DNA from: Rhynchopus sp. YZ270_cl-10 | Taxonomy: Eukaryota > Euglenozoa > Diplonemea > Diplonemida > Diplonemidae | Assembly: GCA_964035575.1 (NCBI GenBank) | Contig: OZ037875.1 | Coordinates: 1,116,001-1,180,000, forward strand | DNA: 64,000 nucleotides | Direction: 5' to 3' | Shown: one piece after another, positions 2,425 through 63,774 of the stretch | Layout: the number at the start of each line of letters is the position of its first letter | How positions within the stretch are numbered: position 1 is the first letter of the stretch | Position numbers and translations under genes: made by a program | Notes under the pieces: model-generated | The model's input: the letters and a program-made list of their open reading frames with translations, nothing else | What the model was told of the DNA's origin: nothing | Database searches by the model: none

Positions 2425-2475
2425 AGTGCCTGCATCCGCCAATGAACGTTGGCGACTTTCAACTTCTCTTTTTTT
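2425..2475 (+). repeat. Short hairpin element, family C
   Basis: Starts CAGTGCCTGCATCCGCC and ends CAACTTCTCTTTT. The internal stem CCGCCAATGAACGTTGGCG is specific to this copy. Confidence 0.6.
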
Positions 2476-2484
2476 TCTTTTTTT

Positions 2485-2682
2485 TTGTCACCTCATGAAA
2501 TGAAGGAGGAAATAGAAACAACGCACTTTGAACACACTTTTGCGGTTCTAGGGACGAACCGCGCTGGCAGAGCCACTCCTCACCAAACAGGTCGAGGTGT
2601 TGTGCGTTTCACCACAAACCTCTCCCATGGGTTTTATCGTGTGATGAGTGTTCAGTTTCTATTTTTATTCCTACGAAGCTTG
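2485..2682 (+). repeat. Repeat family R, copy 1
   Basis: About 190 bp from TGTCACCTCATGAAATGAAG to GTTTCTATTTTTATTCC. The ends pair (GAAATAGAAAC with GTTTCTATTT). A diverged copy lies at 19151-19314. The piggyBac-like element starts a few bases after its end. Confidence 0.7.
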
Positions 2683-2992
2683 CTTTAACCCTTTGCGGAC
2701 CACGACCGTTTTTTTCGATTTGCTCGGATCTTCTCTCCCATAGGTAAAATGAGATCCGATGCATATTTTTGATCGTACCTGGCCGCAATTGAAAGATTTT
2801 GAGCAGATCTTTCAAATGGAGCAGAAATCGAAATAAAATGAGAAAAATGGAAAATGGAAAATTGAGGGGCACTGATATTTTTTTCTGAAAATTTTGAAGA
2901 AAAAAATTATTCCGGCTGCGCACCTGTTTTTTCGGTTTTCGAAAATGGCTTTATTTGAAAGATCGGTTCAAAATCTTTCAAAAGAAAAAAAA

Positions 2993-3405
2993 ATCGATCA
3001 AAAAGTCCTAGTAGATAATGTCTCACTGCATGGAGAGAAGGTACCAACCAACTATATATACCGTAATTGTACAGAGGTTGGACAGTACAAAAGTTGGGGC
3101 TTTTGGGACTTTTGGCCAACTTGGCATGGTGCAGAACAAAGGTGAACGCCGCATCCCCCGCACATGTAATCTGTTTTCAGACGCCTGTTTCCCAAGCAAG
3201 AAGAAGTTGTCGACCAACACCCTCCTGCCAGTGTCTCTGTACCTTGACCGTGTTGATATAGATTTTCTGTACAATGTCCCTCAAAAGACAAAATGCAATA
3301 AATACACGGAGAAGAGGCACATCCAGTTCAGGGTCAGGAACTGCAACTACGCGTGTTACTTTGCCCAGTCGCGGGTATTTTCCATCATTTTAGTTTCGTT
3401 CTGAA
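2993..3405. repeat. 413-bp internal direct repeat, copy 1
   Basis: Begins ATCGATCAAAAAGTCCTAGT and ends TTTCGTTCTGAA. It appears identical to 4041-4453 by eye, including the plus-strand open frame of 128 codons. The identity means a recent duplication or gene conversion. Confidence 0.85.
3052..3291 (-). pseudogene. piggyBac transposase C-terminal zinc-ribbon remnant, copy 1
   Basis: The minus-strand translation contains KTDYMCGGCGVHLCSAPC. This matches the CxxC and LCxxPC pattern of the cysteine-rich tail of piggyBac-type transposases, preceded by two more cysteines. No DDD catalytic core is readable nearby, so it is a remnant. The assignment is strengthened by the TTAA-flanked ends of the element around it. 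Confidence 0.5.
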
Positions 3406-3476
3406 CTTCATTGTGGAGTCCCCCATACAGGAGGAAGGGAGGGGGTTCGCCCTCTCCCACCATACTACACGCGAAT

Positions 3477-3977
3477 ATGACTCTCCTTTTAAGGAGATAT
3501 GATATGGTGATTGCTCAGGCGCGGGCTATGACGGCTGAAGCGATGACTGAGGATGAGTGGTGTGATGCGGCCGACCTGGTGTCAGCTGCATGCACTCTAT
3601 CGGGGCTGATCTCGCAGCTCACGATAGAGGTGGCAGAAGAGGAAACGGCGGTGCAACCGCCACATGACGTGACACCGCGGGCCGTAGCGCTTGCGATGTT
3701 GGTGCGAGCAGCAGCAGCGACTTGCACCGAAGACGAGACACCCGGCGCCTGCTTCCCCGCAGGAGCCACAACAACAGCGACCCCCACCATGACGTGCACC
3801 ACCGGTGGGAAGGTCAAGACGCCTCACAAGGCGCTGAAGAACAAGCCCCCGCCGCCGCCCCCACCCGACCGTGGGTTGACTGCAGCCAGGAAGCCAGTGC
3901 CGCCGCCGCCGCCCAATCGAGACTGGACGACGACGACCGCCATGAGCATTGCATGGAGTAACTCCGGCATCACTTAG
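3477..3977 (+). CDS. Hypothetical Pro-rich protein carried inside the piggyBac-like element
   Basis: 166 codons from ATG at 3477. The open frame extends 22 codons further upstream without an ATG. The N-terminal half is Ala/Glu/Asp-rich and helical-looking (MVIAQARAMTAEAMTEDEW). The C-terminal half is low complexity with two proline runs (KPPPPPPP and VPPPPPN) and Thr-rich stretches. I recognise no domain. Base composition is far more GC-rich than the element around it. It lies exactly between the two 413-bp direct repeats and ends just before a family E hairpin. It could be captured host sequence or an element-specific accessory frame. Translation is uncertain. Confidence 0.4.
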   Translation: MTLLLRRYDMVIAQARAMTAEAMTEDEWCDAADLVSAACTLSGLISQLTIEVAEEETAVQPPHDVTPRAVALAMLVRAAAATCTEDETPGACFPAGATTTATPTMTCTTGGKVKTPHKALKNKPPPPPPPDRGLTAARKPVPPPPPNRDWTTTTAMSIAWSNSGIT

Positions 3978-3980
3978 ACG

Positions 3981-4040
3981 CGTGTAGTATAGTGGAGTTC
4001 ATCTTCGGGTGTCTACACTAAAACAACCAAGTTTTCAAAA
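3981..4040 (+). repeat. Short hairpin element, family E
   Basis: GTGTAGTATAGTGGAGTTC ... GTGTCTACAC, then ACAACCAAGTTTTCAAAA. GTGTAG pairs with CTACAC. It abuts the second 413-bp repeat. TAGTATAGTGG resembles a tRNA A box. Confidence 0.7.
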
Positions 4041-4453
4041 ATCGATCAAAAAGTCCTAGTAGATAATGTCTCACTGCATGGAGAGAAGGTACCAACCAAC
4101 TATATATACCGTAATTGTACAGAGGTTGGACAGTACAAAAGTTGGGGCTTTTGGGACTTTTGGCCAACTTGGCATGGTGCAGAACAAAGGTGAACGCCGC
4201 ATCCCCCGCACATGTAATCTGTTTTCAGACGCCTGTTTCCCAAGCAAGAAGAAGTTGTCGACCAACACCCTCCTGCCAGTGTCTCTGTACCTTGACCGTG
4301 TTGATATAGATTTTCTGTACAATGTCCCTCAAAAGACAAAATGCAATAAATACACGGAGAAGAGGCACATCCAGTTCAGGGTCAGGAACTGCAACTACGC
4401 GTGTTACTTTGCCCAGTCGCGGGTATTTTCCATCATTTTAGTTTCGTTCTGAA
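4041..4453. repeat. 413-bp internal direct repeat, copy 2
   Basis: Matches 2993-3405 without a visible difference. The intervening 635 bp holds the Pro-rich frame and a family E hairpin. Confidence 0.85.
4100..4339 (-). pseudogene. piggyBac transposase C-terminal zinc-ribbon remnant, copy 2
   Basis: Second copy of the Cys-rich tail, present only because the surrounding 413 bp is duplicated. Same residues as copy 1. Confidence 0.5.
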
Positions 4454-4741
4454 GACCGTACAAAATGGTTCCCTGCACACCAAAGTTTGAATCCTCTGAT
4501 GACTCAAGCGCGTCAGAATGGTACATTATTCCCAAAAAATGACCCAAAATACCCTATTATGTGATAATGCCGGGTGTGGATGAGAGGGGATGAGAGCGTC
4601 AAAAAAAATCGAATCGTGCGTCTTTTGAAAGATTTCGCACAAAATCTTCTCATTAAAAAAAAAAATCTTCAAAAAGTCCTAGTGGAAGCCAATTTAGGTG
4701 GTTGCGTGGACATATATGTCCCCTCTGGTCCTTAAAGGGTT

Positions 4742-4849: not shown

Positions 4850-4906
4850 TGTGTGTGTACGACAGACAGAAACAACCCATCCTTTTTTAAGCTTTCTCTT
4901 TTGTAA

Positions 4907-4950
4907 GGTGACTAAGCACGAGAGTCTTAGGTCATCTTATAAACTTTTTT
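4907..4950 (+). repeat. Short hairpin element, family A
   Basis: GGTGACTAAGCACGAGAG then TCTTAGGTCATCTTATAAAC and a T run. CTAAG pairs with CTTAG. Confidence 0.7.
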
Positions 4951-5930: not shown

Positions 5931-5934
5931 TTTA

Positions 5935-8120: not shown

Positions 8121-8160
8121 GTGTATGCACGAGAGGCACATGCATCTTTGTTTTCTTTTG
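8121..8160 (+). repeat. Short hairpin element, family D
   Basis: GTGTATGCACGAGAGGCACA then TGCATCTTTG and a T run. ATGC pairs with GCAT around the ACGAGAG loop. Confidence 0.65.
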
Positions 8161-11864: not shown

Positions 11865-12840
11865 CTTCTTCAAAATAATTCTTGAGTTCTCGTAGAAACC
11901 CGTCTTCGGACAAAAAAATGGGGATATTTTTTTCAACAAAAAAATGATACAGAGGGAGCCTTGCGGAGTAGCAGATCTCAATACTATACATAGCGCTCTA
12001 ATTAGACTCCAACTAGATAATTAGAGTCGGCAGTTAGAGTATAATTAGAGTCTTTAAAACTCTAACTGAACTCTAATACTCTAACTGGACTCTAATTAGA
12101 CTCTAATTAGAGTCTTATAATAGGGTCAATAAGAGGGGCACATCAACCAATGCTATAGCCATAAACCCAGGGAGCATAGCCAGTGCAAGAAATTCGATTT
12201 TGTAATCCAGAACGTCTGTTTTCTGCTTGCAGAGGACTAGATACACTGTGGCTAGGGGTATGGGGATAGGTTCGCTGGGATAGCATATTTGGGGATAGCA
12301 TATGCCATCCCCCAGGGGATAGCATAACCTATCCCCGGGGATAGGTTATGCTATCCCCGGGGATAGGTTATGCTATCCCCCTGGGATAGGTTATTTCAGG
12401 ATAACCTATCCCCCTGGGATAGCATTTGACTGTACTTTACTAAGGATCTGCGTGCTGGGGACACAAAAATTTAGTATCCCCACCCAGGTGCCCATTTGTC
12501 ACCTTCCCACCCCTTAAAAAAATACAAAATAATGGGGGGATTCGGGTGCCCAAATAATCCTATGCACAAAAAATGAAGCGGGGGGGGAAAGGGATAAATA
12601 ATTTTATTTCCCCCACCCAACAACAATGATAAAGCGTAACGACAACAAATAAAAGCAAATAGGAATTTGTGGTTTTTGTGAGGCACTCAACGAAGTGTGC
12701 CGGCTCTGTGGAGACACGGAGCCACCAGCACTCCCCAGTCTTTTTTCCGGAAGTACCTGGAAAACTCGCGGTTGCGACCAGGCAAACGAAAAAATTCAAT
12801 TACACACCAAATGTGTGCGGGAGAAAATAGAAATGCAAAA

Positions 12841-12989
12841 AATTCCAGCTTCATCTGTGGGTGCGACGTTCTGCGGGCCTCCAGACATTAGGTGTTATAA
12901 TTATTCTTGTTGCCACTCATCACCATCAGAATAACACCACAAAATGTCTGGAAGCCCGCAGAACGTCGCACCCACAGATGAAGCTGGAA
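12841..12989. repeat. 49-bp inverted repeat over the start of the element's reading frame
   Basis: AATTCCAGCTTCATCTGTGG at 12841-12860 is mirrored at 12970-12989. The arms (12841-12889, 12941-12989) match almost throughout and are separated by 51 bp. The right arm contains the ATG at 12944, so the transcript's leader could pair with its own start codon. Confidence 0.8.
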
Positions 12990-13396
12990 TTCCAAAACAA
13001 AAAGACCTCTTCGCAGACTTCTTCAAGCTGTACGTGCTTCCTGCACCCAAACACAGCATCCACGTGACGGACCTCAGGGAACTGATCCGAAAGGTATTCC
13101 CCAAGCACTTCGGCAACCTTTCTGACGTAACGCCAACTGTCACATCCGCGATTAAGTCTGCACACAAGAAGGTCAAGGATAACTTGACAAAAAATGAGCA
13201 CGAAGCACTTATGGCAGATGGGAGCGATGCGTGGCTCTACCGGTCCAAGAACGGTGCCCCCTGTGTCCTCTATGGAATGGATATTCGCAAGGAGCCAACC
13301 AACCACATGAAGACTACCTCCGCATACATCCACATTAGGAAGTCCCAGATGAATTACAAAGATCAAAAAAGGACACTGAACCGATCAAGAGCCTGA
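12944..13396 (+). CDS. Element-encoded protein of unknown function, frame 1
   Basis: 150 codons from ATG 12944 (MSGSPQNVAPTDEAG). It includes LFADFFKLYVLPAP and LRELIRKVFPKHFGN, amphipathic stretches that could form a DNA-binding head, and KSAHKKVKDNLTKNEHE. No catalytic motif is seen. It lies inside the 2.45-kb element and probably belongs to its mobility machinery, a guess from position only. Confidence 0.45.
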   Translation: MSGSPQNVAPTDEAGIPKQKDLFADFFKLYVLPAPKHSIHVTDLRELIRKVFPKHFGNLSDVTPTVTSAIKSAHKKVKDNLTKNEHEALMADGSDAWLYRSKNGAPCVLYGMDIRKEPTNHMKTTSAYIHIRKSQMNYKDQKRTLNRSRA

Positions 13397-13434
13397 CAGG
13401 GAAGCAGGCGCATATTGCCCTGACCAACCTGTGC

Positions 13435-15819: not shown

Positions 15820-15868
15820 GTGCCTGCGTCCCAGAGGCGTTTGCACTATCAACTTCACTTTTTTTTCT
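15820..15868 (+). repeat. Short hairpin element, family C
   Basis: GTGCCTGCGTCCCAGAGGCG ... TTTGCACTATCAACTTCAC and a T run. GTGC pairs with GCAC, and GCGTC nearly pairs with GGCGT. The sequence is the same as at 40331. Confidence 0.75.
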
Positions 15869-16364: not shown

Positions 16365-16403
16365 GTGACTAAGCACCGCTTAAGATCACCTTACAACCTT
16401 TTC
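16365..16403 (+). repeat. Short hairpin element, family A, in a probable 5' UTR
   Basis: GTGACTAAGCACCGCTTAAG then ATCACCTTACAACC. The stem is AAGC/GCTT with only ACC in the loop. It ends 13 bases before the ATG at 16417. Confidence 0.65.
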
Positions 16404-18554: not shown

Positions 18555-18675
18555 AGATGTAAACCACGAAATGGATTGTAGGACTGTGCCTGGTTGTGTG
18601 TCCACCCACGGTACAGCCGGTCATGTTCCAAGATACACTGTTCACAAGAGGGCTTTGTATTTCAAGTCAACTTTT
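18555..18675 (+). repeat. Composite repeat ending in family B hairpin
   Basis: GATGTAAACCACGAAATGG, then GTGTGTCC, then AGATACACTGTTCACAAGAG and TTTCAAGTCAACTTTTT. The same order recurs at 18896-18998, and in part at 62641-62721, so family B hairpins sometimes move with about 75 bp upstream. Confidence 0.65.
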
Positions 18676-26101: not shown

Positions 26102-28143
26102 ATGGCCTCAGCAGTTAATCCAATCCCACCTACACCGGATGCACTGAACCTCACAAACCTGAAGGAGTCCTTTGTAGACCAGTTGGCAGTGGAGCGAACG
26201 GAGAATATAGGTATACCGCTTCTTCACAATTTTATTTTAAAGTGACTAAGCACGAGAGGCTTAGGATCATCTTATAAACTTTTCTTTATTTTATTTTTAC
26301 TGAGGAGACGTCAACCTCGAGAAACGATGTACTGCATTTTAAATAAAAAATAACACAAAAAAAAACCCCATTTAGCCCCCAGACATCATCCCAGTTATAC
26401 CCAAAAATGTTCTTTTGTTTTAAAAAGAGATTTTGGTTTATTTTATACACCTCTCCCCCTTGAAAAATACCATAATTTAATGTCTAATTTTATCGAAAAC
26501 AAATCCCCTCCGCAGGCATGGCTGCTGAAGGGCCGTCCGACTATGCGATGGTAGCTGCCGCACTTGACGCAGAGGCCTTGAGCGATGGACAGAGCATGAC
26601 CGCTTCGTCCCCTTCCCCAACGAAGTCGCCTCTTGTCTGTGGCGACTCGCCGTTGTCAGCCACATCGCAGCTCCCCCCTCCTCCTGCCCCTGCTCCTCCG
26701 CAGGACACAACACTCACCGAACTGCCAAGAGGCATGACGAGTGTCCCGCAGACCCCTCATACCCCACCTGATTTGGCACCTCCTCCGCAGATGCTGACAC
26801 GGCAGTCTGGGTCTCAGGGCTCCCTCCTCTCTGGGAGTGAAAAGCAGAGTCCGTTTACAGAGGCGGCAGGGACACCACATGGATTGCCTCCTGGTCAGTC
26901 TTTTCGGAGGCCGAAGCTGGCTTCTGTTGTTCCGGTGCGTGCAGGGTCGGCAGCGTCTGATGGATCTGTTCGGTCTGCCGTTCCTGTTGCATCGAATTTG
27001 TCGCAGACGCAGTCGCAGTCACCTCGGTCCACACAGCATCACGATGTGGATCTGAGAGTGTACGGCTCTCCAGCGTCGACGCTGTCGGATGCATTCCCTT
27101 CTCAAACGCAGGCAGTGGGGAGGGTGTCAAAGCGGCCTGCTGGACCAGCATGGGGTTCTCCCCTTTCTGCTACCTCTTCAAAGCAGTTTTATTCCGAAAT
27201 CGAGTCTCCTTTGGTAGGCGAAGTACCCACAACGGAGAGACTAGCAAGCATGTCACCTACGACGGGGCATACCCAAAATGAGTTGAAACATGTTCAGACG
27301 ATGTTGGAGGCGGTAAAGACAAGGGGTACACCAATGCATGCGGTGCAGGCAGCGTTTGACGAAGCGATGTACGAAGAAGAAGCGCGGGTCGTCCTCGAAG
27401 TGATCTCTGCGGAAGAGTCTGGCGTGCGTGGTGAGATGTTCACCGCAGAGCGGACCGAATACGAAGACATCCTCTCCGCATACCGAGCAACCTTTAACAT
27501 AAAATCCACCGCCGAAAAAATAGCCCGCAGGGAACGCCGTCGCCAAAAGGAGCTGGACCGTCTACACCACCTAAAAGAAACCGAACTCCTCCGCGCATGG
27601 AACGAACGGTGCCTCGGTGCCTCCCCGGCAGAAGAGGTACGAAGAAAGGCGGAGAGGGAAAGAGAGCTCCAACAAATACAGCAAACGAACATTGTGACGA
27701 AACAGCTGCGCAGTCGCTACCGTGCGGAGATGCCTCCATTTGCAAGCAATGTACAGAGTATGAGAGAGCGTGGCGTGATCGCCGATGGGAATGCAGTAGG
27801 CGGGGCAGCTATGGAAGGTGGTGGTGCGTCGTACCAGGAGATGGCGGCAGGGCTGCGACGCTCGTATTGGCTCTCCCGCATTGACAAGGAAGAGCGTGAG
27901 CGGGAGGACAGCTTCCGCCGTGCCACAGCAAACCCAGCTGACGCACACCTCCCGCACATGCCCTACCTCGGTGGGAGAGAGGCGGCTTCTGACGTAGGTG
28001 CCAAAGTGCCCGGACGTATTTCCTTTGACTCAGAGGAGCAACTCCACCGTTATGAATACGAGCTCGCCCACGGCCCCATCGCCCTCTACGACAACGAAAC
28101 CCTGATGGGAAGGGGAACACCAAGTAGGGCGCCGTGGAAATAG
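26102..28143 (+). CDS. Hypothetical coiled-coil protein, two exons
   Basis: CDS joins 26102-26210 and 26516-28143 (578 aa). The donor AATATAG|GTATAC and acceptor CTCCGCAG|GC restore a Gly codon (phase 1). Without exon 1 the frame would start at Met38, which is also an ATG. The N-terminal 300 residues are Ser/Pro/Thr-rich and look disordered. Residues about 360-440 are Arg/Glu/Lys-rich with heptad character (ARRERRRQKELDRLHHLKE, RRKAERERELQQIQQTN). The C-terminus has HRYEYELAHGPIALYDN. I do not recognise it. A cytoskeletal or ciliary protein is conceivable from composition only. The 305-bp intron carries a family A hairpin in the sense direction. Confidence 0.75.
26242..26285 (+). repeat. Short hairpin element, family A, inside an intron
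   Basis: GTGACTAAGCACGAGAGGCT then TAGGATCATCTTATAAAC and TTTTC. It starts 32 bases after the 5' splice site of the coiled-coil gene. Confidence 0.75.
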
Positions 28144-32542: not shown

Positions 32543-32597
32543 AAGCCTTCGGGCGACATTGTGTACAGAACTTGCTATGGCAGGGGATTGTCGAAAA
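32543..32597 (+). repeat. Short hairpin element, family F
   Basis: AAGCCTTCGGGCGACATTGT GTACAGAACTTGC ... GGGGATTGTCGAAAAC. CGACA pairs with TGTCG. Confidence 0.65.
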
Positions 32598-33288: not shown

Positions 33289-33348
33289 CGTGTAGTATAG
33301 TGGAGTTCATCTTCGGGTGTCTACACTAATACAACCAAGTTTTCAAAA
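33289..33348 (+). repeat. Short hairpin element, family E
   Basis: GTGTAGTATAGTGGAGTTCA ... GTGTCTACACTAATACAACC and AAGTTTTCAAAA. Near-identical to 3981-4040, which is inside an unrelated transposon. Confidence 0.7.
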
Positions 33349-34070: not shown

Positions 34071-34398
34071 GCCCACCCGTAAATTGAGTTTCTCACCCCA
34101 AAATCATTATTTTTTTTTACCCCATCCAAAAAACGTTCCTCTTCCAGCTTAAGAAAAAAGTTTCTTTTTTTCCTGTGACTAAAGTATTTTTTTTTCGGTT
34201 GAGGGTGATTTTGTATCATCTGTCACTCCGAAAATTCATTGGCCTTCAAAAAAAACGCAACATTTGTGCACAAAATACTCCATCGCCTCCGGAAACGCTC
34301 CAAAAAATGTTGCCCTCCTCTTTTTTTGTAACTCCCTCTTTACTCTCGCTTCAATTTTTTTTCCAGATTTTTTTGACTGAGTGCACAACTTATTTCAG

Positions 34399-37217: not shown

Positions 37218-37918
37218 ACGAAAACAATAATGTGAACGTCATATCACGACCCTGTGGTTTCCCCTCTCCAGTGACAGGAAGTCCAGTCCTGTGTTCGATG
37301 CAAGAAGCAGATGGGTTGGCTTTTCCTCTTGCGTATAGAGGGGAGCTCGCACCCCTACCTCACTCCCTTTAAAGCCCCTTAAATAGTCAAATTATTATTT
37401 TTTTTGAAAATAGCACCATAAAAATGCGAGCTGAATCTGCACGCACAATTTGTCGGCTTGGAGTTTTGTTTTGTTTTTTTTCGTTTGTTTCTGACTTCCT
37501 TCATGACCACGTGTGGTCATATTTTTTTTTTGCTGCGTCCGCCGATGAACGGTACGGCGTTTTCCCTTTTTTTTGGGAAGGGCTGTGTTCAACGAAGTAA
37601 TCTTCCCTTCCCTAGTCGTGTTATCAAGATCTGGTGGCGACCGTAAAATGCGGGTTTTCGATTTTTTTCCGTTTGGGTAGAGTGGATGGAGGGGGTAATT
37701 TGTTCACACAAAACGGCTGGTACAGGGCAGGACATGGTAGAGAATGCACAGTGCCTATCCGCCTGGAGGTGTCTGCACGTTACCAAATCCACTTGATTCA
37801 ATCCACAATCCACTTTCCCGCACCCGCCTTGACCCGCACCCACCTCATCGTTGCTGCGGTCAACGGAAAAAAAGACACGCACCAATATTTTCTCTTTCCC
37901 CCTTTTTTCATGTACCAA

Positions 37919-37962
37919 GGTACACTGTCACGAGAGGGCTTTGTATTTCAAGTCAACTTTTT
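37919..37962 (+). repeat. Short hairpin element, family B
   Basis: GGTACACTGTCACGAGAGGG then CTTTGTATTTCAAGTCAACT and a T run. Consensus copy. Confidence 0.75.
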
Positions 37963-39240: not shown

Positions 39241-39380
39241 GACTGAAGGACGTTGTACAAAGAGTCTTATCCACCGTAAAGCATTCTCTATTTGGGAGGA
39301 GGGGGTTACATGATTTGTCTACTGCCTATACCCTCCCCTTTGTGAGATTTATCATCATCCCAAAATCATTGTTATTTTTA

Positions 39381-39424
39381 GGTGACTAAGCACGAGAGGC
39401 TTAGGGTCATCTTACAGACTTTTC
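39381..39424 (+). repeat. Short hairpin element, family A
   Basis: GGTGACTAAGCACGAGAGGC then TTAGGGTCATCTTACAGACT. CTAAGC/GCTTAG stem intact. Not present at the matching place in locus copy 1. Confidence 0.75.
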
Positions 39425-39478: not shown

Positions 39479-40299
39479 GGGGGGAAAATGAGCATCATTC
39501 CTTTAAGCATTCCCCTTCTGGATTTGTACAGTCTTTCAGAATCTTTTTTTTTTTGAGAGAAAAAACCCCGTACCAGGCTGCTGAGTAAACGAGGCACCCA
39601 GTCGGGGATCGCAAAAGACCTGGGCTTGGCACAAACAGAACACCGTGCCGCCAGGGCTCGTAACAAAAAATATAGTTTTTTTTTTCAAAAAAGTGGATAT
39701 TACCTTCTTATCTTACCTTTGCAGCATCCTTAAAAACTGGCGGCTTTAGGTTGTCTATAACGAAACAACAAAACTTTTTAGCATCCTTTCTCTCCGGATA
39801 ATCTCTCCGCTCTCAGGACCTATCGACAGTGTTCAAAACAAAAAAAGTGGAGATTGCACAACTGCAGCAACACAACCAAGACAAACTACACTACTCCAAC
39901 AATTTATCACAACACAACAAACCCACCCCCAACCACACCCCTTTCAGACAAAACACACTATTCCCCCCCTATGATGTATTGAAGATCTTTGCCCCTTTCC
40001 CCCCCCCTTCCCCACACTTCCCCTCTTTTTAGGAACCTAAGCAGCCCAAAAAAAGCACAGCGCTTAGATACACCGTACCATTTTTTTTTCTTCTTTTTTC
40101 TGTTTCAGTACCCAAAGAAAAATAATCCAACTTTGCGTTGTTCCACACACACACACCCTTTTACTTTTTTTTCGTTTCTTTCTTCAACTTTCACCTTCAA
40201 AGATTTTGCTTATATTTACCCCCTTTTTTTTCTCTTCTATAAAGCAGAGAGTTCTGCTTTTTTTGCTTACAGCTTCCCTGTAAACCACACCCAAGCGCA
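39479..40299. other. Intergenic, no gene seen
   Basis: Homopolymer- and CA-rich DNA. Bases 39580-39660 are GC-balanced (CGGGATC... GGCTTGGCACAAAC) but too short to judge. No RNA gene found. Confidence 0.5.
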
Positions 40300-40330: not shown

Positions 40331-40377
40331 CAGTGCCTGCGTCCCAGAGGCGTTTGCACTATCAACTTCACTTTTTT
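40331..40377 (+). repeat. Short hairpin element, family C, in a probable 5' UTR
   Basis: CAGTGCCTGCGTCCCAGAGG then CGTTTGCACTATCAACTTCA and a T run. It ends 20 bases before the ATG at 40397. Confidence 0.75.
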
Positions 40378-40396
40378 TACCCCATTTTTGGATACA

Positions 40397-52286: not shown

Positions 52287-52345
52287 TTAGCCTTCGGGCG
52301 ACTTTGTGTACAGAACCCGTCCTCGGACAGGTGATTGTCGAAACT
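52287..52345 (+). repeat. Short hairpin element, family F
   Basis: TTAGCCTTCGGGCGACTTTG TGTACAGAACCCGTCCTCGG ACAGGTGATTGTCG. CGAC and GTCG close the element, and CCCGTCCTCGGACAGG forms an inner stem. It lies 290 bp upstream of the PDZ-PH gene. Confidence 0.65.
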
Positions 52346-52633: not shown

Positions 52634-55052
52634 ATGTCCGAGGAGGTTCGGGTTATTTTGGTAGGAGAGAAATGGGAGGCGAAGGAGAAGATGAGCGACA
52701 ACCTCATGTTTAAAATGAAGGCAAGCGAGAGCCTGAAGTCGCAAGGGGAGGAGATGGCCAAGCTTTTGGGGCGGCCTGACCTGGGCGGGCTGGAATTTTT
52801 CAAGGGGAAGGGGAAGCCGCCGGCGGTTACCCCTGGGGTGAAGCTGAACCTCTCTAAGGTCGCTTCCGACGTCGCGACAAAAGCGGGCAGCATTGTCATC
52901 TACGTCAAGGAGAAGGAGAAGAAGGAGAAGACTGCAGCACCGCCTAGCAACAACGTCAAGCTCCTTCTCTGCGGAGACGACTGGAAGGCCAAGACAAAGC
53001 TCTCCGACAACCTCATGGCCGACATCAAGAAGGACCAAACCCTCGAGTCCTCCCTGCCAGACATCCTCAAGCTTCTCAAGCTTTCGTCCCTCGAAGGCTA
53101 CCACCTCTGCAAAGGGCGCGGCAAAGCACCAGAGATCACCGCAGGCACAACCATGGACCTAGCGCGCACCCCAGAATCCCTCAATCTCCAAGCCGCCGCA
53201 TTTGTCTACGTCAAGAAGGTGAAGAAGGCAGACGCAGCCAAGCCCAAGGAGGTACGCCAGGCAATCTACCAGCTCGGCTCTCTCGTGGACCTGCAAGACG
53301 AAGATACCGACGAATGGACAGGCGGTCAAGTGACGGTCCTCCACAACGATGGGTCATACGATGTAAGTCTCGTGTCAGGTGCAGTGGTGCGCTTTGTGGA
53401 TGCAGATGATCTTCGTGTTAGCACAGTATGTAAAAAATGGGCAAAAAAAACAACATTTTTGAAAAACTTCGACGAAACAGCAAAACGACGAAATGAAGTG
53501 TTTCACTTTATTTTCAGTGCCTGCATCATGCGTTTTTGCACTTTCAACTTCTCTCTTTTTCCCCTTAACAGACCCAAGCAGCGAAGGCACCTGCAAAGGA
53601 GGTTTCGAAGGAACAGCAGCTTGAGGCGCTGAAGACACTCTCTGGGGAGTTCCCATCGAAGTCGGTGCCCGAGATCGGAGGGCTGCTGAAGAGCAACAAC
53701 TTTGATGTTGAGGTATGCCCTACACAACCCCCCTTACCTCCTCCACATCACATCACTTCAAAACGACAACAGGGAACACGCAGTCTGCTGAAGGCCAGCA
53801 TGCCCGCTGCGCCTGTAGAGAAGAAGACTCGCCGCAGACGCGACGACGACGAAGACGACTTCAACCCGCTAAAGCCCTACAAGGTAAAGCTCGACGGCAA
53901 AGAAGAGCTTGGTATCGAGTACTTCAGCCAGTCTGGGAAGGTGCTGATTACCAAGGTCTCTGGGGGTGCATGTGGCCGTGCGGGTGTACCGACAGGGCTT
54001 TTGGTTCGTGTTGGTGGTGAGCGGGTGGACTGCAAGGAGGACCTTATCAAGGCAGTGACAACCATCCGCAAGGAAGGCATTCAGCAGTTCGATCTGGAGA
54101 TGGACACACGAGAGGCGGCAGCGGTGTACATTGGTTGCATTGTGGATGCAAGCGTTGGTGCGGATGAGTGGGAGCGTGGTACCGTCATCGCGATCCACCC
54201 CGACGGAGAGGACCTGACGTTCGACGTCAAGCTTGAGGCTGATGGGGAGATTGAGGATGATTTGTCGTTTGGTGATCTGCAGCTCATTAGCGATGCGCAG
54301 CTGAAGGAGGAGCATGATTCGCGCGCACGGAGCAACAGCAACAGCAGTAGCAACACAAGCTTCTTCTCGCAGGCGAAGGCAGAAGGCAAGAAGGTCATCT
54401 CCGGGGGTCCCGACCCGAACGACCCAAACAACCCGACCGACACACCGCCCAACCTGATGCCCGACCACAGCGGCGTGATGCGCAAGAAGGGCAACGACAT
54501 GATCGGTCTCTACAAGAACCGCAAATTCGCGCTCTACGGCACAGCGCTTTACTACTATAAGATGGACAGCAACACCCCCATGGGGGTGCTCGACCTTCGG
54601 CAGTCCCTTGCAATGGACGACCTGGCGAAAGGAAGGGTATGCCTTTTTTCAATTTTTTGCACATTCTCAACCCCCTTCAGTCTGCACCTTCTGCATTAGG
54701 TTTCGGCCAACTTTGAGTACAGAACTTTGTTCCGGCTTTGAGCGCACAAACAAAAGACCCGATCTTTTTTTTGGAGCGAAGTGAATGTCGATACAACAAC
54801 AACATAGGGCCGTACATAGTCGGCCACTGTGTATAGACCATTCAGCAACCCTAGAGTGGAGTTCAGGAATACACATGAATATTAGACGTCATAACACCAC
54901 AAAACACAAAACACAAAACACAGGAGTACTTCGGGATTGGCGGGCGCAACCTTGAACGAGTTTACCACTTCATCTGCGGGAGTGAGGAGGAGAAGACCGA
55001 ATGGATGGACAAGCTGAAGGCCGCAGGTGTGATGGTGAAGCCGTCTACGTGA
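52634..55052 (+). CDS. Multidomain scaffold: duplicated N-terminal modules, CUE-like, PDZ, two Tudor/SH3-like, PH; four exons
   Basis: CDS joins 52634-53425, 53572-53712, 53773-54636 and 54924-55052 (641 aa, all introns phase 0, donors GTATGT/GTATGC). Two homologous modules open it: 3-92 (VILVGEKWEAKEKMSDNL) and 104-194 (KLLLCGDDWKAKTKLSDNL), possibly ubiquitin-like folds. 212-262 (WTGGQVTVLHNDGSYDV) is Tudor/SH3-like. 268-320 (LEALKTLSGEFP, SNNFDVE) resembles a CUE ubiquitin-binding helix set. 335-410 is PDZ (LGIEYFSQSGKVLITKVSG). 415-470 is a second Tudor-like unit (WERGTVIAIHPDGEDLTFDV). About 520-635 is PH (GVMRKKGNDMIGLYKNRKFA to EEKTEWMDKLKAAG), split by the last intron, with the diagnostic Trp in exon 4. 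Probably a membrane-recruited adaptor. Confidence 0.85.
53516..53560 (+). repeat. Short hairpin element, family C, inside an intron
   Basis: AGTGCCTGCATCATGCGTTT then TTGCACTTTCAACTTCTC. GTGC pairs with GCAC. It occupies the 3' half of intron 1 (146 bp) of the scaffold gene. Confidence 0.7.
54696..54792 (+). repeat. Family F-like element inside an intron
   Basis: TTAGGTTTCGGCCAACTTTG AGTACAGAACTTTG ... GTGAATGTCGATA. It fills the first half of intron 3 (287 bp) of the scaffold gene and is longer than other family F copies. Confidence 0.55.
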
Positions 55053-56210: not shown

Positions 56211-56212
56211 CT

Positions 56213-56984: not shown

Positions 56985-57388
56985 TTCTTTTTTCTTTTTT
57001 CTTTTTTCTTTTTTCTTTTTTGTAACGATACCTTTGTTTCAAATGACAATGCATTTCTCTGTGTATGTAGTTCCCCTCCCCCCCAACATGAGGCTATAGG
57101 TCGCTATTATTAGGACATCCTCATCACCGCCACCTCTTCCTTCCACACTATGTTTCCTAAGAACTTCTCTGCACATGGTTGCGCATTTTGCCCAAAAATT
57201 ACAGGAAAAAAAAAAAATAGAAAAAATAAAGAACACAAAAGAGAGGATACCAAAAAACAAAACCACAACGGAAAGCGAGCCGAAGAAAACGTTTTTTTTT
57301 TTTTTTTTTTCACCCCCCAATTATATTATTTTTTTAGGACATGATTGGGGGTCCACCCCACACTACAGCCAGGTCATTTTTGTACCAA
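56985..57388. other. Intergenic, no gene seen
   Basis: Contains a (TTTTTTC)n tract near 56996 and long T runs at 57292-57311. Overlapping weak frames on both strands. Confidence 0.5.
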
Positions 57389-57437
57389 AGGTACACTGTT
57401 CACGAGAGGGCTTTGCATTTCAATATCAACCCTTTTT
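57389..57437 (+). repeat. Short hairpin element, family B
   Basis: GGTACACTGTTCACGAGAGG GCTTTGCATTTCAATATCAA. TGTA has become TGCA. It lies 190 bp upstream of the flippase start. Confidence 0.7.
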
Positions 57438-57626: not shown

Positions 57627-60600
57627 ATGAGCAGTACTGTTAGCTCTGGGCGCGTTGAAGAGGCGTACTCGCCACAGTCAGGGGCCGCATTGGGGCTCAA
57701 CTCAACAAACCCAGTGATGTCCAACTCACAGACGGACGCCGTAGAGCTGGCCACGCAGTCAGGCGAGCCTGTGAACGCCCGCCTCTGGATGATGCCTGCC
57801 GTGGTCATGGAGGAGCCGTCCCCCTTTGCCCGCGCATGGTCGTGGATGCGCAACTACTTCGAGCGCGCGAAGATCCTCAAACCTCTTCCCCTCAAGGAAC
57901 GCACTGTCATCGCAGGGGAGAAGGCGCCACCACACTGGTATGTTTTTTTTTTTTTTTTTTTGGAAAAGAGTGGAGCTCATTTCAGGGGTGTCTACACTAA
58001 GTAGAAATGGACCCTTTTGTGGCACCTCCTGAAACCCTATGAAGGTCTACCTGAGGGTGAAAGGTGCTGGGACGGCTTCCCCACAGAAAAGGCCGCAGTG
58101 GGAAAATACAACATAACATACCACACCACACAGCTTCCCCGAGAACCTGGTACGGAACCAGAAGTACTCCCTCGTCACCTTCTTCCCCCTCAGCCTCTAC
58201 GGGGAGTTTAAGTACTTCTTCAACCTTTATTTCTTGGCTGTTGCAATTTCGCAGTTTTTCCCGCCCCTTCAGGTATGCACACTACCACACCACCACCGCC
58301 ACCCACCCCACCTCACCCACAGGTCGGATTCCTTTTCACTTACGTTGCGCCTTTGGTGTTTGTCGTGGCGATAGCGTTGCTGAAGGAGGCGTACGACGAC
58401 TTCCAACGATACATACAAGACAAGGAGGCCAACTCCGAGGAGTACGAGGCGTATTTCCCTGAGGAGACTATCGGGGACAGGGTCGGCCCGAACGACAGCT
58501 TTCTGCGGAACTCCATTCTTTCGAGCAAATGCTCGCACTCCGCCTCGCAGGCACCACACAGCAACTGGGTACGCATCCAGTCCAAGGACATCATGGTTGG
58601 CATGATTCTGCGTCTCCACACCAACCAGCGTGTCCCTGCCGACTGCATTCTCCTTCGCACCAGCGAGAAGGACGGCTCCTTCATAAGAACTGACCAGCTA
58701 GACGGCGAAACCGATTGGAAACTGCGCCTCCCCATCCCCATCTACCAGGAAGCGTCTTCAGATCACGATGCACTACAAATCAAAACCCACGTCTGGTCTG
58801 AAGAGCCGCACCAAAGAATCTACGACTTCATCGGCTCCGTCAACAGAATCGGGGGAACCGAGGACGAAAGCGTCCCCCTCTCGCTCGAAAACACGCTCTG
58901 GGCGAACTGTGTTCTCGCAACAGGGACGGTCCTCTGTGTGGTGGTCTACACCGGAAAGGAGACCCGCGCTGCGTTGAACGCAAACCAGCCGAAGTCTAAG
59001 GCAGGGCTTATTGACCTGGAGGTGAACTTCCTTGCAAAGCTTCTCTTCATTCTGTGTGCGGCACTTGGGTTGATCATGGTCGCCTTCCAAAACTTCCAAG
59101 GCGAATGGTACGTGTCTGGGTTCCGCTTCACGCTCCTCTTCTCTTCGATTATCCCAATCTCCTTGCGTGTCAACCTCGACATGGGCAAGGCGTGGTACTC
59201 AATTCTCATCCAAACCGACAAAGTCATAGAAGGCGTCCAGGTCCGCAACAGCAACCTCCCTGAAGAGCTTGGCCGCATTGGGTACCTCTTCTCAGACAAG
59301 ACCGGCACGCTCACGAAAAACGAGATGGTGTTCAAAAAGCTATTCGTTGGCACCGAGGTGCCGAAGGGGTGGCTGCACTCAGACTGCAACGAAATGACGT
59401 CAATCATCAAAGACACCTGCGACACAAGCAAGGAAACACAGTCATCACGCTACACAGGACGGCACTCCATGCACTCAAGCCTGGCACTGCCGCGTGCCTC
59501 TGGTGAGCGTGGTTCCTTTACACCCGGCGACACTGCGAGCCACGCCGCAGATGATGAGGAAAGCGACTACGACTTTGCACGCGCTGTCACAGAGAAGCAG
59601 ACGGACGAGCTCTTCAACGCCATCACTGCGCTCGCAGTCACGCACAACGTCACTCCTGTCATCGACCCAGACACACAGAAGAAGATCTTCCAGGCATCCT
59701 CACCCGACGAAGTAGCATTGGTCATGTTCGCCGAGCAGGTAGGCCTTGCCTTGCAGTACCGCGACCGCTACAAAATGTCGATCTGCGGCCGTGTGAAGAC
59801 CCTCAACGTCATGGCCGGGGTGCGGCGCAACCCTATCACAACTCTGGACGCTGCACGCATTGAAGGCACCTCAAACGACGGAGGCACACAGACCACCTCT
59901 ACAGGCATCAATATGGGGTCCATCGAGACCACCCTCGACGACTTTGGGTACAGACTTTCAAAGGTCACACTACCGTCAAACGGACAGACCGCAACATCCA
60001 CCCCACAAAGCAACATGCATGGCCAGGCTTCCGCGTACAGTGCATTGGAGCCCTACGTCGGATGGTACATTACCAAGATCAACGGCGTCGGGTACGACGA
60101 AGAGAGCCACGTGGTTGCTGTCAACGACGATCTTGTTGCGCTGTCCGACACTATAGCCTCAGCGGATGCGTCTGATACCGGCAGTGTGGGAGGCAAGGTG
60201 ATGCATGAGTCGTTCACGCAGACGACCCACGAGGTGACCCCCCTCACCCTCGACGAGCAGCTCACCATGCTTGCCAACAACCCGGTCCCAGAGTTCCAGG
60301 TTACTCTCGAGAGGCGACTCAACTTTGAAATCCTGATGGAGTTCCCTTTCACCTCTGAGTCGAAGCGTATGGGTATTGTCATCAGAAACAGCGATACGCA
60401 GAACATTCATTTGTTCATGAAGGGTGCGGACACGAAGATGGCTGAGATCATTGCGCCCTCACCGTGGCTTGAGGAGGAGTGCAGCAACCTCGCGCGCGAG
60501 GGTCTGCGTACGCTGGTCTTTGGAGCGAAGCGGCTTACCCAGGAGGAGTACAATGAGTTCTTCAGCCTCCACAAGCTTGCGCTTAAGAGCAGAGACCCTA

Positions 60601-62108
60601 AACGCGATGTCGAAGATCTGAGAGTCCGAATGGAGAAGAACCTCGAGCTGGTTGGGATGACTGGTGTCGAGGACAAACTGCAGGACGACGTCTGCAAAAC
60701 GCTGGAGCACCTCCGCAATGCCGGCATCCGTGTCTGGATGCTCACTGGCGACAAGGTGGAGACCGCCATCTGCATTGCCCGCAGTACACGCCTTGTTTCC
60801 AAGGACGGAGGTGTGTTCCCTGCCGACTGTGAAGGCCTCTCCCGCTTTGATTGGCTCTGGGAACGCGAGCTTGGCCGCGATGGGTGGCGCCCTGGTGTCA
60901 CAATGACATCACACCAGCATGCCTTGGACTATATCGAATCCTTCAACAGATTTGTTGACCATGGTTCACGCCTAGGTGGCTACACTATGGTTGTCGACGG
61001 AAACTCGCTGCACCAGCTGATGCAGGTTGAGGAGCCCTTTGTTGACGCTGCAGGCAAAGCTGCGTCTGTGGTGGTCGCGCGGTGCTCACCCACACAGAAG
61101 GCAGAGGTGGTGGAGATCATGAAACGGCATGCACAGGAAACGTCAAAGGTCCGCACTGCTGCCATTGGAGACGGAGGTAACGATGTCTCCATGATTCTCG
61201 CCGCTCACGTTGGTCTTGGAATTGAAGGAAAGGAAGGTCGCCACGCATCGCTCGCAGCGGACTACTCTCTAATCAAATTCTCGCATTGTCTCCGCCTCAT
61301 CACCTGGCATGGTCGCAACTCTTATAAACGTAGTGCACGTCTTGCGCAGTTTGTTATCCACAGAGGTCTTATCATCAGTATGATCCAAGCTATCTTCAGT
61401 GCGTTGTACTACTTTGTATCGGTTCCGATCTACACCGGATGGCTTTTGGTGGGGTACTCCACTGTGTACACGATGCTTCCCGCATTCGCGTTGGTGTTGG
61501 ACGAAGACGTAACAGAGCAGGATGTGAACAACTTCCCGGAATTGTATAAGGAACTGCACAAATCACGTTCGCTGAACACCCGGACCTTCTTGCAGTGGGT
61601 GTGCAAGGCTATCTACCAGGGTGGGATTATCATGCTCGCGGCGATCTATCTGTTTGAAGTGTACTTCCTCCGTATCGTGACCATCACCTTCACAGCGTTG
61701 ATTCTGACGGAGCTTGTCACGGTGTGGTTGGAAATGCATATCCGGCCGGCCCTATTCGTGGTGTCGGAGCTGCTGAGCATTTTGGTGTACATCATTTCGT
61801 TCTTTTTCTTGGAGAGTTTGGATTTGGAGTTTGTGGAGAATTGGGATTTCTGGTGGAAAACGACGGTTATTACAACCTTTGCATGTGCTCCTGTGTATCT
61901 GGCTAAGGTGATGGAGAGACTATGCTGTGAATCAAGCCACGCCAAGCTTCGTACCTTCTCCAATGATGCGCAATCGCAGCCGCTGCTCGGTGACTTTGCG
62001 TATAAAGTGCACAATTTTGTTCTTTCAATTATTTCGAAGCTCTTCGTTCGTGACAACGCGAGGCAACAGCCACGCCCTAGCAGCGATGTTTGCGAACCCT
62101 TGCTTTGA
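57627..62108 (+). CDS. P4-type phospholipid-transporting ATPase, Neo1/ATP9 class, three exons
   Basis: CDS joins 57627-57937, 58134-58272 and 58323-62108 (1,411 aa). Exon 2 supplies FPENLVRNQKYSLVTFFP and LYGEFKYFFNLYFLAVAIS, the conserved start of Neo1/ATP9 flippases. Later landmarks are DGETDWKLR (Asp277; actuator loop), NLDMGKAWYS, the phosphorylated Asp475 in FSDKTGTLTKNEM, FMKGADTKM, WMLTGDKVETAICIA and GDGGNDVSM (Asp1100), then six C-terminal spans. It should flip aminophospholipids in Golgi or endosomal membranes; Neo1-type pumps need no Cdc50 partner. A Ser/Thr-rich insert of about 200 residues (roughly 500-780, with breaks) enlarges the nucleotide-binding domain. Intron 1 (196 bp) carries a family E hairpin. 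Confidence 0.93.
57967..58003 (+). repeat. Short hairpin element, family E, inside an intron
   Basis: AGTGGAGCTCATTTCAGGGG TGTCTACACTAAGTAG. It lies in intron 1 of the flippase, 29 bases after the donor. The 5' arm is truncated, as at 22682. Confidence 0.6.
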
Positions 62109-62399: not shown

Positions 62400-62440
62400 A
62401 TGTGCGTGTACGAGAGAGGGTTGCATTCATCTTTCAAAAA
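62400..62440 (+). repeat. Short hairpin element, family D
   Basis: ATGTGCGTGTACGAGAGAGG GTTGCATTCATCTTTCAAAA. Loop ACGAGAG kept, stem weak. Confidence 0.6.
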
Positions 62441-62524
62441 AAAAAAAATCCCTTTTCTTTCAGAATGTGTGCATGTGATACACATTTTTTTTTTCAGGCT
62501 ACAAATTTCATTTTTTTTTTTCTA

Positions 62525-62557
62525 GGTGACTACTCACAGAGAGAAAGGGGCTCGTAG
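62525..62557 (+). repeat. Short hairpin element, family A, diverged
   Basis: GGTGACTACTCACAGAGAGA AAGGGGCTCGTAG. Only the 5' GGTGACTA and an AGAG loop are kept; CTAC and GTAG can pair. Confidence 0.4.
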
Positions 62558-62579
62558 AACGGTACCTTTTTTGGCTGGT

Positions 62580-62622
62580 TACATTGTTCACGAGAGAGAG
62601 TGCCGTATTTCAAGACACATTT
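62580..62622 (+). repeat. Short hairpin element, family B, diverged
   Basis: TACATTGTTCACGAGAGAGA GTGCCGTATTTCAAGACACA. TAC and GTA at the stem ends are kept. Confidence 0.55.
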
Positions 62623-62640
62623 GTTTGTTTCCTCGAAGAA

Positions 62641-62721
62641 ATGGATGTAGGACTGCATGATTGTGGTCCAAACACGGTACACTGTTCACGAGAGGGCTTT
62701 GTTATTTTAAGTCAACTTTTT
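62641..62721 (+). repeat. Composite repeat ending in family B hairpin
   Basis: ATGGATGTAGGACTGCATGA ... TCCAAACACGGTACACTGTT CACGAGAGGGCTTTG, then AAGTCAACTTTTTG. Same order as 18555-18675. Confidence 0.65.
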
Positions 62722-62942
62722 GTCAGGTGCCCGCATCGCAGAGGATCGTTTGGATTTCCCCTTTTTCAATTTTCAATTCAATTTCGTCTTCTGGCATACA
62801 GTGTGGTATGAACACTTGGTTCTTTTATTTGGGGTAAGGTTAATCAATAACTATTCCTTTATTTCCAATTTGATGCTTCATTTTTTTATGTTGATTTTTG
62901 CCCAATGGTTTGTTTTTTTAGGGGGGAGGGGTGGGGGGTTTC

Positions 62943-63187
62943 AGTACATACACGACGGTGAAGTATGTTACATTCCAAGTGAAGTTACTCGTAACGTTAC
63001 AAGTGAAAACCGTTACAAGTGGGTTACATGTAAGTTACATGTACCACCACCTGATTTTGCCTGAAATTAGGTGAAGTTCAGTGGTTTTTGGTGGTGGTAC
63101 ATGTAACGTTACAAGTGGGTTACATGTAACAAAAGTTACATGTAACTCCACTTGTAACACCCGTTACTTCACCGTCGTGTATGTACT
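62943..63187. repeat. 245-bp inverted-repeat MITE
   Basis: The ends AGTACATACACGACGGTGAA GTA are exactly complementary, possibly with TTCA duplicated outside. The interior is packed with GTTACAAGTG and TTACATGTAA motifs in both orientations, around a short GGTGGTGGTACATG / CATGTACCACCACC inner stem. Confidence 0.8.
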
Positions 63188-63713
63188 TCAAAGGTAACAT
63201 TAATAAAAAAAAACTTATGTTACCTCGGTCATGCGGCCACTGTGCACCAACGATGTTGCACTGCGATGACATGATGACACGGTATATAGTAACGAGACTT
63301 TTTCAGGATTTATCATGTCATTTGTCAAGTAACATGACATTTGTCAAGAGATCGCAGTGTGTGTGGTGTGTACCCCTTATCCTCCCCCTTCCCCGCCCTT
63401 CGGATTCATTGCATCGCATTTTCTTCAGTTTACTTTACTATATGGGGTTTGGGGGAGGGGGGGTACAAAAAAAAAATGAAAAAGTGAGAAAAAAATACAA
63501 TAATAGCTGCCCCTCAGGATATACAGCAACTCGAGAAGAACGATCCTCATCGGAATGGCCCTTTCGGTTCTTTTTTATTGAAGGTGTTGAAAAATATCGC
63601 AGTATTTGTGTATTGACTGCGTGGGCTGTTCAGAGCATCACCTCCCGTTAGCTGACCGAGGGAGGAGAAAAGGCAGAAAAAGGACGGAACCAAACCAAAA
63701 AAAAAAAAAAAAA
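63188..63713. other. Intergenic, no gene seen
   Basis: Contains CATGTCATTTGTCAAG followed at once by CATGACATTTGTCAAG (63316-63352), a short tandem duplication. The plus frame 63181-63651 has no coding character. Confidence 0.5.
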
Positions 63714-63774
63714 TGTTTAGTATAATGGTGCACACTCTCGGGTGGCTACATTAATGCAACCAAGTTTTCAAAAA
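63714..63774 (+). repeat. Short hairpin element, family E, diverged
   Basis: GTTTAGTATAATGGTGCACA CTCTCGGGTGGCTACATTAA TGCAACCAAGTTTTCAAAA. TTAGTATAATGGT is even closer to a tRNA A box than the other copies. Confidence 0.6.

Follow-up and report, generated by a model that had tools for sequence, protein, structure and literature searches.

Short dispersed elements of a diplonemid genome lie in gene-sense orientation in their main families

Short elements in the window

The 64,000-nucleotide stretch analysed here (the window) comes from a diplonemid, a marine unicell with a 152-Mb genome, and carries many copies of short elements, roughly 45–120 nt long and hairpin-forming in most families. 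By nhmmer profiles we identified 45 matches at E<0.01, spanning 3989–63776 and belonging to families D (12), A (10), C (9), B (6), F (6), E (1) and H (1); the letters are our own set and may differ from those of the preliminary description. That description spoke of more than fifty hairpin elements, every copy on the + strand. All 45 strong matches are indeed on the + strand, as are the weaker first-round matches to C (2426, 15570 and 53517) and D (2364, 48038 and 62516). Together these come to about fifty, so the order of the earlier number was roughly right, with 45 at the stricter cut-off. The only minus-strand match of the first-round window profiles is a weak one to A, within a gene (17638–17618, E=0.05).

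All copies named below read on the + strand, with nhmmer E-values in brackets. Family D hairpins with T tails lie at 4906..4948 (2e-12; covariance model R1, 61.5 bits) and 26242..26284 (1e-14; R1, 67.4 bits), and a further D copy at 16365..16403 (6e-7) is placed 13 nt upstream of the ATG of a 679-aa ORF. Family A is found at 18630..18675 (1e-14), where it has a T tail and a longer form reaching upstream, at 37917..37961 (6e-16), at 57388..57434 (6e-12) and at 62675..62720 (6e-12), the last accompanied by a second A copy at 62580–62622. Family C, also a T-tailed hairpin, occurs at 15825..15865 and 40338..40378 (both 2e-11). A C copy at 53517..53568, outside the 45 and matched by the first-round window model only (1.6e-7), is within a 146-nt intron (53426–53571, GTATGT...AG), whose borders we infer from reading frame and sequence.

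The A-tailed family B is represented by a copy directly past the ORF of a repeated unit (3989..4041, 2e-17), by one at 33297..33348 (9e-18) with a duplicate at 38510–38561, by one within the putative first intron of a P4-ATPase gene (57968..58000, 7e-5) and by one at 63722..63776 (6e-16). The repeated unit of the 3989 copy has an antisense copy in locus L011. The single family E copy, with an A tail, is at 39846..39909 (6e-16). Family F consists of a UUCG hairpin followed by a variable stem between conserved motifs; copies lie at 32544..32596 (3e-15; duplicate at 37165–37217), at 52289..52343 (4e-14) and, at an ORF end, at 54698..54736 (2e-7). Family H is a short hairpin with a ACGAGAGG loop common to other families (8124..8148; 8e-4 with a single-seed model).

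The earlier report that reverse-complement signatures are absent holds for GGGTGTCTAC, GAGAGGGCTTTG and GAGGCGTTT as exact words (+/− counts of 5/0, 3/0 and 5/0 in the window) but not for CACGAGAG (13/1), whose single reverse word at 53280 is in coding sequence and not in an element, as is one forward word at 54107. With one mismatch allowed, the window counts are 31/12, 11/3, 6/2 and 6/1 for the words of 8, 9, 10 and 12 letters. Short words alone are therefore not clean on the two strands; the profiles are. Across the genome CACGAGAG occurs 7626/7650 times, against 3548/3574 for the same word read backwards.

Orientation relative to the coding strand

The search sample comprised the window and 25 spaced 10-kb loci (314 kb in total, both strands). 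Here profiles of the six families A–F found 170 copies at E<0.01, showing that the elements are dispersed; the six models gave no match at E<0.05 to the reversed, uncomplemented sequence. The coding strand is known in 23 of the loci, namely the window, two other plus loci and 20 minus loci. In these, families A, C, D and F are in sense orientation in 111 of 111 cases, 44 on plus loci and 67 on minus loci (7 and 67 outside the window). The window alone contributes 37/37, the two other plus loci 7/7 and the 20 minus loci 67/67. The switch with gene strand elsewhere, on which the preliminary description had staked its reading, is thus present. Fisher's test on the strand table gives p=5e-32, a value to be read with the non-independence of copies within a locus; by locus, 23 of 23 are uniform and sense. 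A covariance model of D returned 53 matches to E=1, of which 46 come from loci whose coding strand is known, and every one of these 46 reads in sense. For the main families A, C, D and F, a one-way orientation that follows the gene strand is confirmed in the sample.

Families B and E are less strict (28 of 34 sense, six antisense), and the control repeats X1–X5 are mixed (26:19). Mobile elements are generally expected in both orientations, as for a SINE or MITE; what we find is 111:0 in A, C, D and F and 28:6 in B and E. This orientation sets the main families apart from ordinary mobile DNA in the sample. Composition was also considered: sense-strand runs of at least 6 nt are T-runs and A-runs in a ratio of 790:571, and unbiased insertion into such runs predicts about 58% sense for the T-tailed families, compared to the 96/96 observed for A, C and D together. 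Homopolymer runs alone cannot therefore produce the bias.

Tails and likely sites of insertion

Families A, C and D carry a 3′ oligo-T tail and families B, E and F an oligo-A tail. In the first 10 nt downstream the T fraction is 0.57 after A/C/D and the A fraction 0.64 after B/E/F, falling to near background by 20–30 nt; this excess, over the first 10–20 nt, matches the 3′ homopolymer tail of a SINE or other non-autonomous retroposon. The 10 nt upstream are also enriched (0.44 and 0.45 for the same tail types). We find no target-site duplication in the six families, repeats shared by a copy's own flanks being no longer than repeats between flanks of different copies.

A segmental duplication within the window provides a comparison of a filled and a likely empty site. 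The near-consensus D copy at 39380..39424 (6e-15) is present in one duplicate, and its likely empty counterpart in the other (34095..34160, + strand) has an unbroken T-run and matching flanks; this is one clean site, with short directly matching flanks, and it could instead reflect precise loss of D. No empty/filled pair was found in the sample for the other families. The duplicates also differ by roughly 590 nt near 37560–38150, a segment that holds two A copies and that may have been either inserted or deleted.

Elements tend to lie close together, with 17 pairs at most 60 nt apart where 7.1 are expected. Neighbours within 30 nt share the tail type in 10 of 10 cases, two of these pairs being D–D, each perhaps a tandem or the fragments of a single copy, and neighbours within 120 nt do so in 22 of 24 (expected fraction 0.56).

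RNA structure

The loop CACGAGAGG is common to A, D and H, where it sits on different stems. Copies of F have unrelated but paired stems (p=7e-5 when all 20 pattern matches are combined); pairing that is kept while the sequence changes suggests selection on structure. In D, 83.2% of cells retain pairing, compared to 81.9% when partners are shuffled (the observed level is reached in 12 of 500 shuffles), and the two stem arms decay nearly independently. With RNAalifold neither A nor D gave a consensus structure, and F gave 3 pairs. Family A does not qualify as a strong hairpin: its consensus has a z of about −0.2, and the z of its copies averages −0.08, where that of D copies averages −1.45 and that of F copies −0.45. 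An Rfam identity was likewise rejected for the window, where none of the 45 elements is overlapped by the 27 matches to E=5, one of which overlaps the weak C at 15570. We also discarded the idea that the CACGAGAG loop pairs with the spliced-leader array, as CTCTCGTG, CCTCTCG and CTCTCG are absent from the + strand of locus L034. A dinoflagellate origin was set aside too, because the dinoflagellate leader did not occur even when up to 2 mismatches were allowed.

Placement relative to genes

None of 114 copies lies inside a coding segment. Within noncoding DNA, the distances from copies to the coding segments on either side resemble random placement, and in the sample loci we found neither a per-gene spacing nor clustering upstream of coding starts. 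The gene-poor loci L029 and L023 hold many copies. An ordering of tail types between genes, reflecting polyadenylation and trans-splice sites, was considered and dropped (55 T-tailed and 26 A-tailed copies, Mann–Whitney p=0.49).

Discussion

We put at about even the chance that small structured RNAs gave rise to the elements by SINE-like retroposition, with copies inserted one way at homopolymer runs. In such a scheme each family would be a short RNA with a 3′ U-rich (A, C, D) or A-rich (B, E, F) tail. The tail would anneal to a matching homopolymer run, where reverse transcription would be primed, and the copy would enter without duplicating the target site, in many cases within the tail of an element already present. 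If the primer lay in every case on the antisense strand relative to transcription, copies would read gene-sense. By analogy, our preferred version has the primer supplied by the 3′ ends of nascent lagging strands, within long gene clusters that may be replicated and transcribed in the same direction; in a close alternative the RNA would first be inserted into nascent pre-mRNA and then reverse transcribed. From the sample, the scheme draws on the orientation, the tails, the avoidance of coding segments, the one likely empty site, the tail-matched neighbours and the lack of duplications. To these we add, by inference, the RNA intermediate, the strand of the primer and co-directional replication. 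Speaking against the scheme are the six antisense copies of B and E, the pairing that F retains as its sequence changes, and the chance that the one clean empty site arose by precise loss. Possible, though somewhat short of an even chance, is the fuller version, in which a one-orientation retroposition pathway set by polycistron direction, with U- and A-tails placed on antisense homopolymers (nascent lagging strand) or on the nascent transcript, would have left tens of thousands of sense-only copies in the noncoding genome.

The preliminary description had offered three readings of a one-way set, namely function in the transcript, RNA-linked spread and removal of reversed copies. RNA-linked spread fits best because of the tails, the likely empty site and the tail-matched neighbours. 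The hairpins could instead be functional RNA elements of polycistronic transcripts, for example sites for RNA-binding proteins in UTRs or introns, amplified by older retroposition, like the SIDERs of Leishmania, and working only in sense. Consistent with this rather unlikely reading are the sense orientation, the absence from coding segments, the loop shared on different stems, the slight excess of D pairing over shuffled partners and the SIDERs, described in PMC2689281 as exclusively sense within 3′UTRs; structure suggests such a function in family F only, through its paired but unrelated stems. For A, C and D it is weakened by the random distances to genes, the lack of a splice-acceptor signature and the nearly independent decay of the D arms, and the wealth of copies in gene-poor loci, the unordered tail types and the missing consensus structures of A and D also argue against it. 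Insertion in both orientations with purging of reversed copies, for example because antisense copies in a polycistron would pair with thousands of sense transcripts and set off RNA silencing, would suit a bias that has no exceptions in A, C, D and F but some in B and E. It is, however, quite improbable, since the bias runs the same way in all six families where a majority-wins rule should have left some of them antisense, purging must also act in gene-poor stretches, and the control repeats occur in both orientations.

Splicing could in principle set the direction, if the hairpins were modules of 3′ splice sites or trans-splicing, with branch site and polypyrimidine tract. The order of hairpin, ...AAC and T tract resembles such a module, and the C copy at 53517 lies just upstream of the likely intron end. 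However, the 100 A/C/D copies are followed by no AG-free zone (36 AG compared to 31.5 expected at 0–15 nt, 77 compared to 67.1 at 15–30 nt), a pyrimidine precedes the first AG in 57 of 100, in surroundings rich in pyrimidines, and B, E and F have A tails. With neither an AG exclusion zone followed by YAG nor a position before coding starts, the module is largely refuted and we consider it very improbable. Still more remote are self-spreading, introner-like introns, which would necessarily be sense and which share the hairpins and one-way orientation described in PMC7789003. Spliced introns within genes are not what we see: coding segments are free of copies, an AG boundary signal is absent, and from the D copy at 39380 it is 1.2 kb to the nearest downstream coding segment that we recognised.

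A genome with several one-way short families beside mixed repeats would document, in nature, either strand-specific retroposition or very strict transcript selection, and in those diplonemid genomes whose genes are hard to recognise the elements could act as simple strand markers. Among known systems, SINEs and other non-autonomous retroposons resemble the elements in being short, tailed, dispersed and prone to land in tails, and the elements may share their mobility; here, by contrast, there are no target-site duplications found, two tail types and one orientation in the main families. The target duplication and both orientations of MITEs are not found either. Leishmania SIDERs, at about 0.5 kb, are longer than the elements described here.

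According to PMC2689281 and PMC11520807, SIDER1/SIDER2 are overall about four-fold more often sense than antisense, with antisense copies enriched between polyA and splice sites; they are likewise Euglenozoan, in polycistronic clusters, with many noncoding copies and strongly sense in 3′UTRs, whereas here we have short units, 111:0 in four families and no tie to UTR position found. RmInt1, a group II intron that lacks an endonuclease, goes into the template of the lagging strand (PMC8914252) and so shares one-strand insertion relative to replication, but it is a bacterial catalytic intron and is proposed as an analogy only. The introners of Amoebophrya (PMC7789003) are hairpin-bearing, dispersed and sense but are spliced introns in genes, whereas our elements avoid coding segments and are without splice borders. 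For the non-canonical introns of hemistasiid diplonemids, the authors of PMC12621601 suggest a MITE-like insertion origin; these too are diplonemid and base-paired, but they are introns with paired ends, whereas most of our hairpins lie outside the genes that we recognised, and the handful of introns that we read have the form GTATG...AG.

Orientation of the hairpin families

By scoring strand in the window and in 10-kb loci placed at fixed positions, one on each of 25 contigs (L009–L033; together 314 kb, 0.2% of one genome), we compared the hairpin families with the coding strand of their surroundings. Coding strand was taken from codon usage in long ORFs, the elements themselves not being used, and was assigned in 23 of 26 sources (3 plus, including the window, and 20 minus). 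At E<0.01 the sense:antisense counts were 28:0 for A, 24:0 for C, 44:0 for D, 15:0 for F, 18:3 for B and 10:3 for E. The preliminary description had all hairpin elements of the window lying one way, in gene sense. Across the sample this holds for A, C, D and F (111:0 over 23 loci, uniform in each); B and E are mostly sense with three antisense copies each. As a check it asked whether the bias switches with gene strand, and in the sample it does: A, C, D and F are sense in 44 cases on plus loci and 67 on minus loci, with no antisense copy on either (without the window, 7 and 67). At E<0.05 these four families stand at 114:0. B also lies at the end of a repeated ORF-bearing unit; the copy of this unit in L011 is antisense, which explains one reversed B copy out of the three.

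Excluded from these counts are matches in three loci without a coding strand, namely L029 (three A, three B, two C, six D and one E, all +), L019 (five B and two F, all −) and L016 (one C on each strand and one E on +). Word counts, with loci oriented by element majority, give the same picture as the profiles (CACGAGAGG 25:1, AGAGGCTTA 18:0). A covariance model of D, made from 37 copies, gave 53 matches up to E=1, none opposing the locus strand and 46 of them in loci with a coding strand; the profiles gave no match on reversed sequence.

Five control repeats totalled 26:19 (X1 8:4, X2 8:6, X3 5:2, X4 3:3, X5 2:4), several of their copies being tandem or duplicated and hence not independent; X6 (2:0) is outside this total, and matches to X3 and X6 were too few for a proper model. 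A family-free self-BLAST of coding-masked DNA gave same:opposite strand ratios of 441:76 below 60 nt, 300:82 at 60–150 nt and 36:30 at 150 nt or more. With A–D matches removed the bias persists (160:59, 155:63 and 35:30), and therefore more one-way families exist.

Families and their structure

Nucleotide profiles were built from words in the preliminary description and then iterated. Family A is AAGGTACACTGTCACGAGAGGGCTTTGTATTTCAAGTCAAC with a T tail and D is AAGGTGACTAAGCACGAGAGGCTTAGGNTCATCTTATAAAC with a T tail; C comprises several variants that are related to each other, and most of these end in AACTTC(A/T)CTTTT; B and E are elements with oligo-A at the end. The same loop, CACGAGAGG, occurs in both A and D as well as in H, a small family. 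Consensus folding beats dinucleotide shuffles for B1, B2, C1, C3, D and H (z −2.2 to −4.6) and less strongly for E (z −1.75); the A, C2 and whole F consensus show no extra stability over such shuffles (z −0.16 to −0.58). Copies of D are only weakly constrained in structure where they sit: pair cells are kept at 83.2% versus 81.9% with shuffled partners (12 of 500 shuffles as high), and 37 of 500 shuffles match its covariation score.

Family F usually runs from a UUCG hairpin through GAGTACAGA, a variable stem and GATTGTCGA to A, a hypervariable stem framed by conserved motifs. Such an arrangement is familiar from small catalytic and guide RNAs. A pattern scan found 20 matches (17 sense, 3 antisense), of which 11 were judged true F by the UUCG hairpin; all 11 are sense, two of them in L019, where strand was taken from the elements themselves. 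In 8 of the 11, two being duplicates of each other, the variable region is stabler than nearly all mononucleotide shuffles (p 0.003–0.076; combined p = 7e-5 over all 20 matches). Five or more of the stem sequences in these stable copies are unrelated to one another; the remaining 3 of the 11 lack a clear stem. An Rfam search of the window gave no family matching the elements, F copies included.

Insertion, neighbours and placement

The window holds two duplicated segments, 86–97% alike in long non-repetitive blocks. At one site they differ, an unbroken T-run (34095–34160) facing a near-consensus sense D copy (39380–39424). Flanks match directly over about 20 nt upstream and over 50 nt at 90% downstream; farther upstream, another 74 nt match at 98.6%, with a 118-nt palindromic insert (33953–34070) lying between the two upstream stretches in the empty copy. 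The inserted unit would be about 45–50 nt, and this comparison of sequences points to D being mobile, unless a copy was precisely lost. No comparable empty/filled pair was found for the other families, and no target-site duplication was detectable at the elements. T or A excess peaks in the 10 nt after an element, with a weaker excess in the 10 nt before. The palindromic element is present in one duplicate only, near the likely empty D site. Likewise confined to one segment is a stretch of about 985 nt (31281–32264) with an apparent 12-nt target duplication and an antisense X1 inside.

Elements follow one another tail to head. Among sense copies at E<0.05, neighbours share tail type in 10 of 10 pairs within 30 nt, 13 of 14 within 50 nt and 22 of 24 within 120 nt, against an expected fraction of 0.56, and in 55 of 95 beyond 300 nt. 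None of 114 A–D copies (majority-strand matches in loci having coding segments) overlaps a sense coding segment, though such sequence makes up 35% of the oriented sample; distances to coding segments otherwise look random. T- and A-tailed types show no ordering between genes. A splice-acceptor role was considered for T-tailed copies and rejected, no AG exclusion zone being found downstream of them.

Sense-strand homopolymer runs of at least 6 nt number 790 for T and 571 for A, so targeting of such runs alone would give about 58% sense for T-tailed families, far from the 96 of 96 observed. Since homopolymer targeting falls short and in-place constraint on D is weak (F differs in this), we favour insertion via one strand only. 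Nascent lagging-strand priming under co-directional replication could yield sense copies without duplications, as could insertion into nascent RNA.

Abundance and precedents

Scaling E<0.01 matches outside the window up from the 0.2% sample gives, roughly, 77,000 A–F copies genome-wide. The closest precedent is the SIDERs. Within 3'UTRs these are exclusively sense according to an abstract (PMC2689281), the same source putting sense about 4-fold over antisense in gene clusters, with spacers enriched in antisense; another report gives 82% sense for Leishmania infantum 3'UTR SIDERs (PMC11520807). Among the matches listed from the open-licence PMC literature, no title or abstract describes such hairpins in diplonemids.

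Genome setting

The assembly comprises 152.4 Mb in 126 contigs, the window being contig 43, 1,116,001–1,180,000. Among the best 120 of 7093 matches, its P4-ATPase (58323–62105) has Diplonema papillatum as top named relative (55% identity) and is 60% identical to an ENA protein. Allowing up to two mismatches, 450 forward and 291 reverse occurrences of the diplonemid spliced-leader (SL) core were counted; the leader sequence of dinoflagellates is absent. We read the genome as that of a diplonemid. One array (L034, C1:1392400–1395700) combines six SL genes, two U6 and one SRP RNA; in D. papillatum, SL, 5S and U2 are reportedly grouped. Leader sequences without the SL intron after them, found at 32 genome places (20 regions read, L038–L057), are SL-bearing retrocopies; several have tandem or partial repeated leaders and many belong to one repeated family. 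In four retrocopy loci (L036, L037, L048 and L050) A–D matches occur, always on the leader's strand; two of these loci, L048 and L050, have a D hairpin that begins about 30 nt downstream of a degenerate leader.

One report on D. papillatum describes genes in one-strand clusters and trans-splicing of essentially all mRNAs (PMC10161547). Here 20 of the 22 strand-assigned loci of L009–L033, all 300–510 kb from contig starts, are on minus and the window, far along its contig, is on plus; judging by these sampled positions, gene clusters may run outward from the middle of the chromosomes. The window also contains 291-nt inverted repeats, 98% complementary, with CCCCGGGGATAGGTTATGCTATCCCC-type repeats (12242–14695), perhaps a DNA transposon; large tandem arrays of 9-nt and 12-nt repeats (about 20941–22450 and 35527–36036); and two ORFs matching, in a eukaryote, the type VI secretion Hcp domain (47251–47781, Pfam E=6e-10; 48455–49384, E=4e-8).
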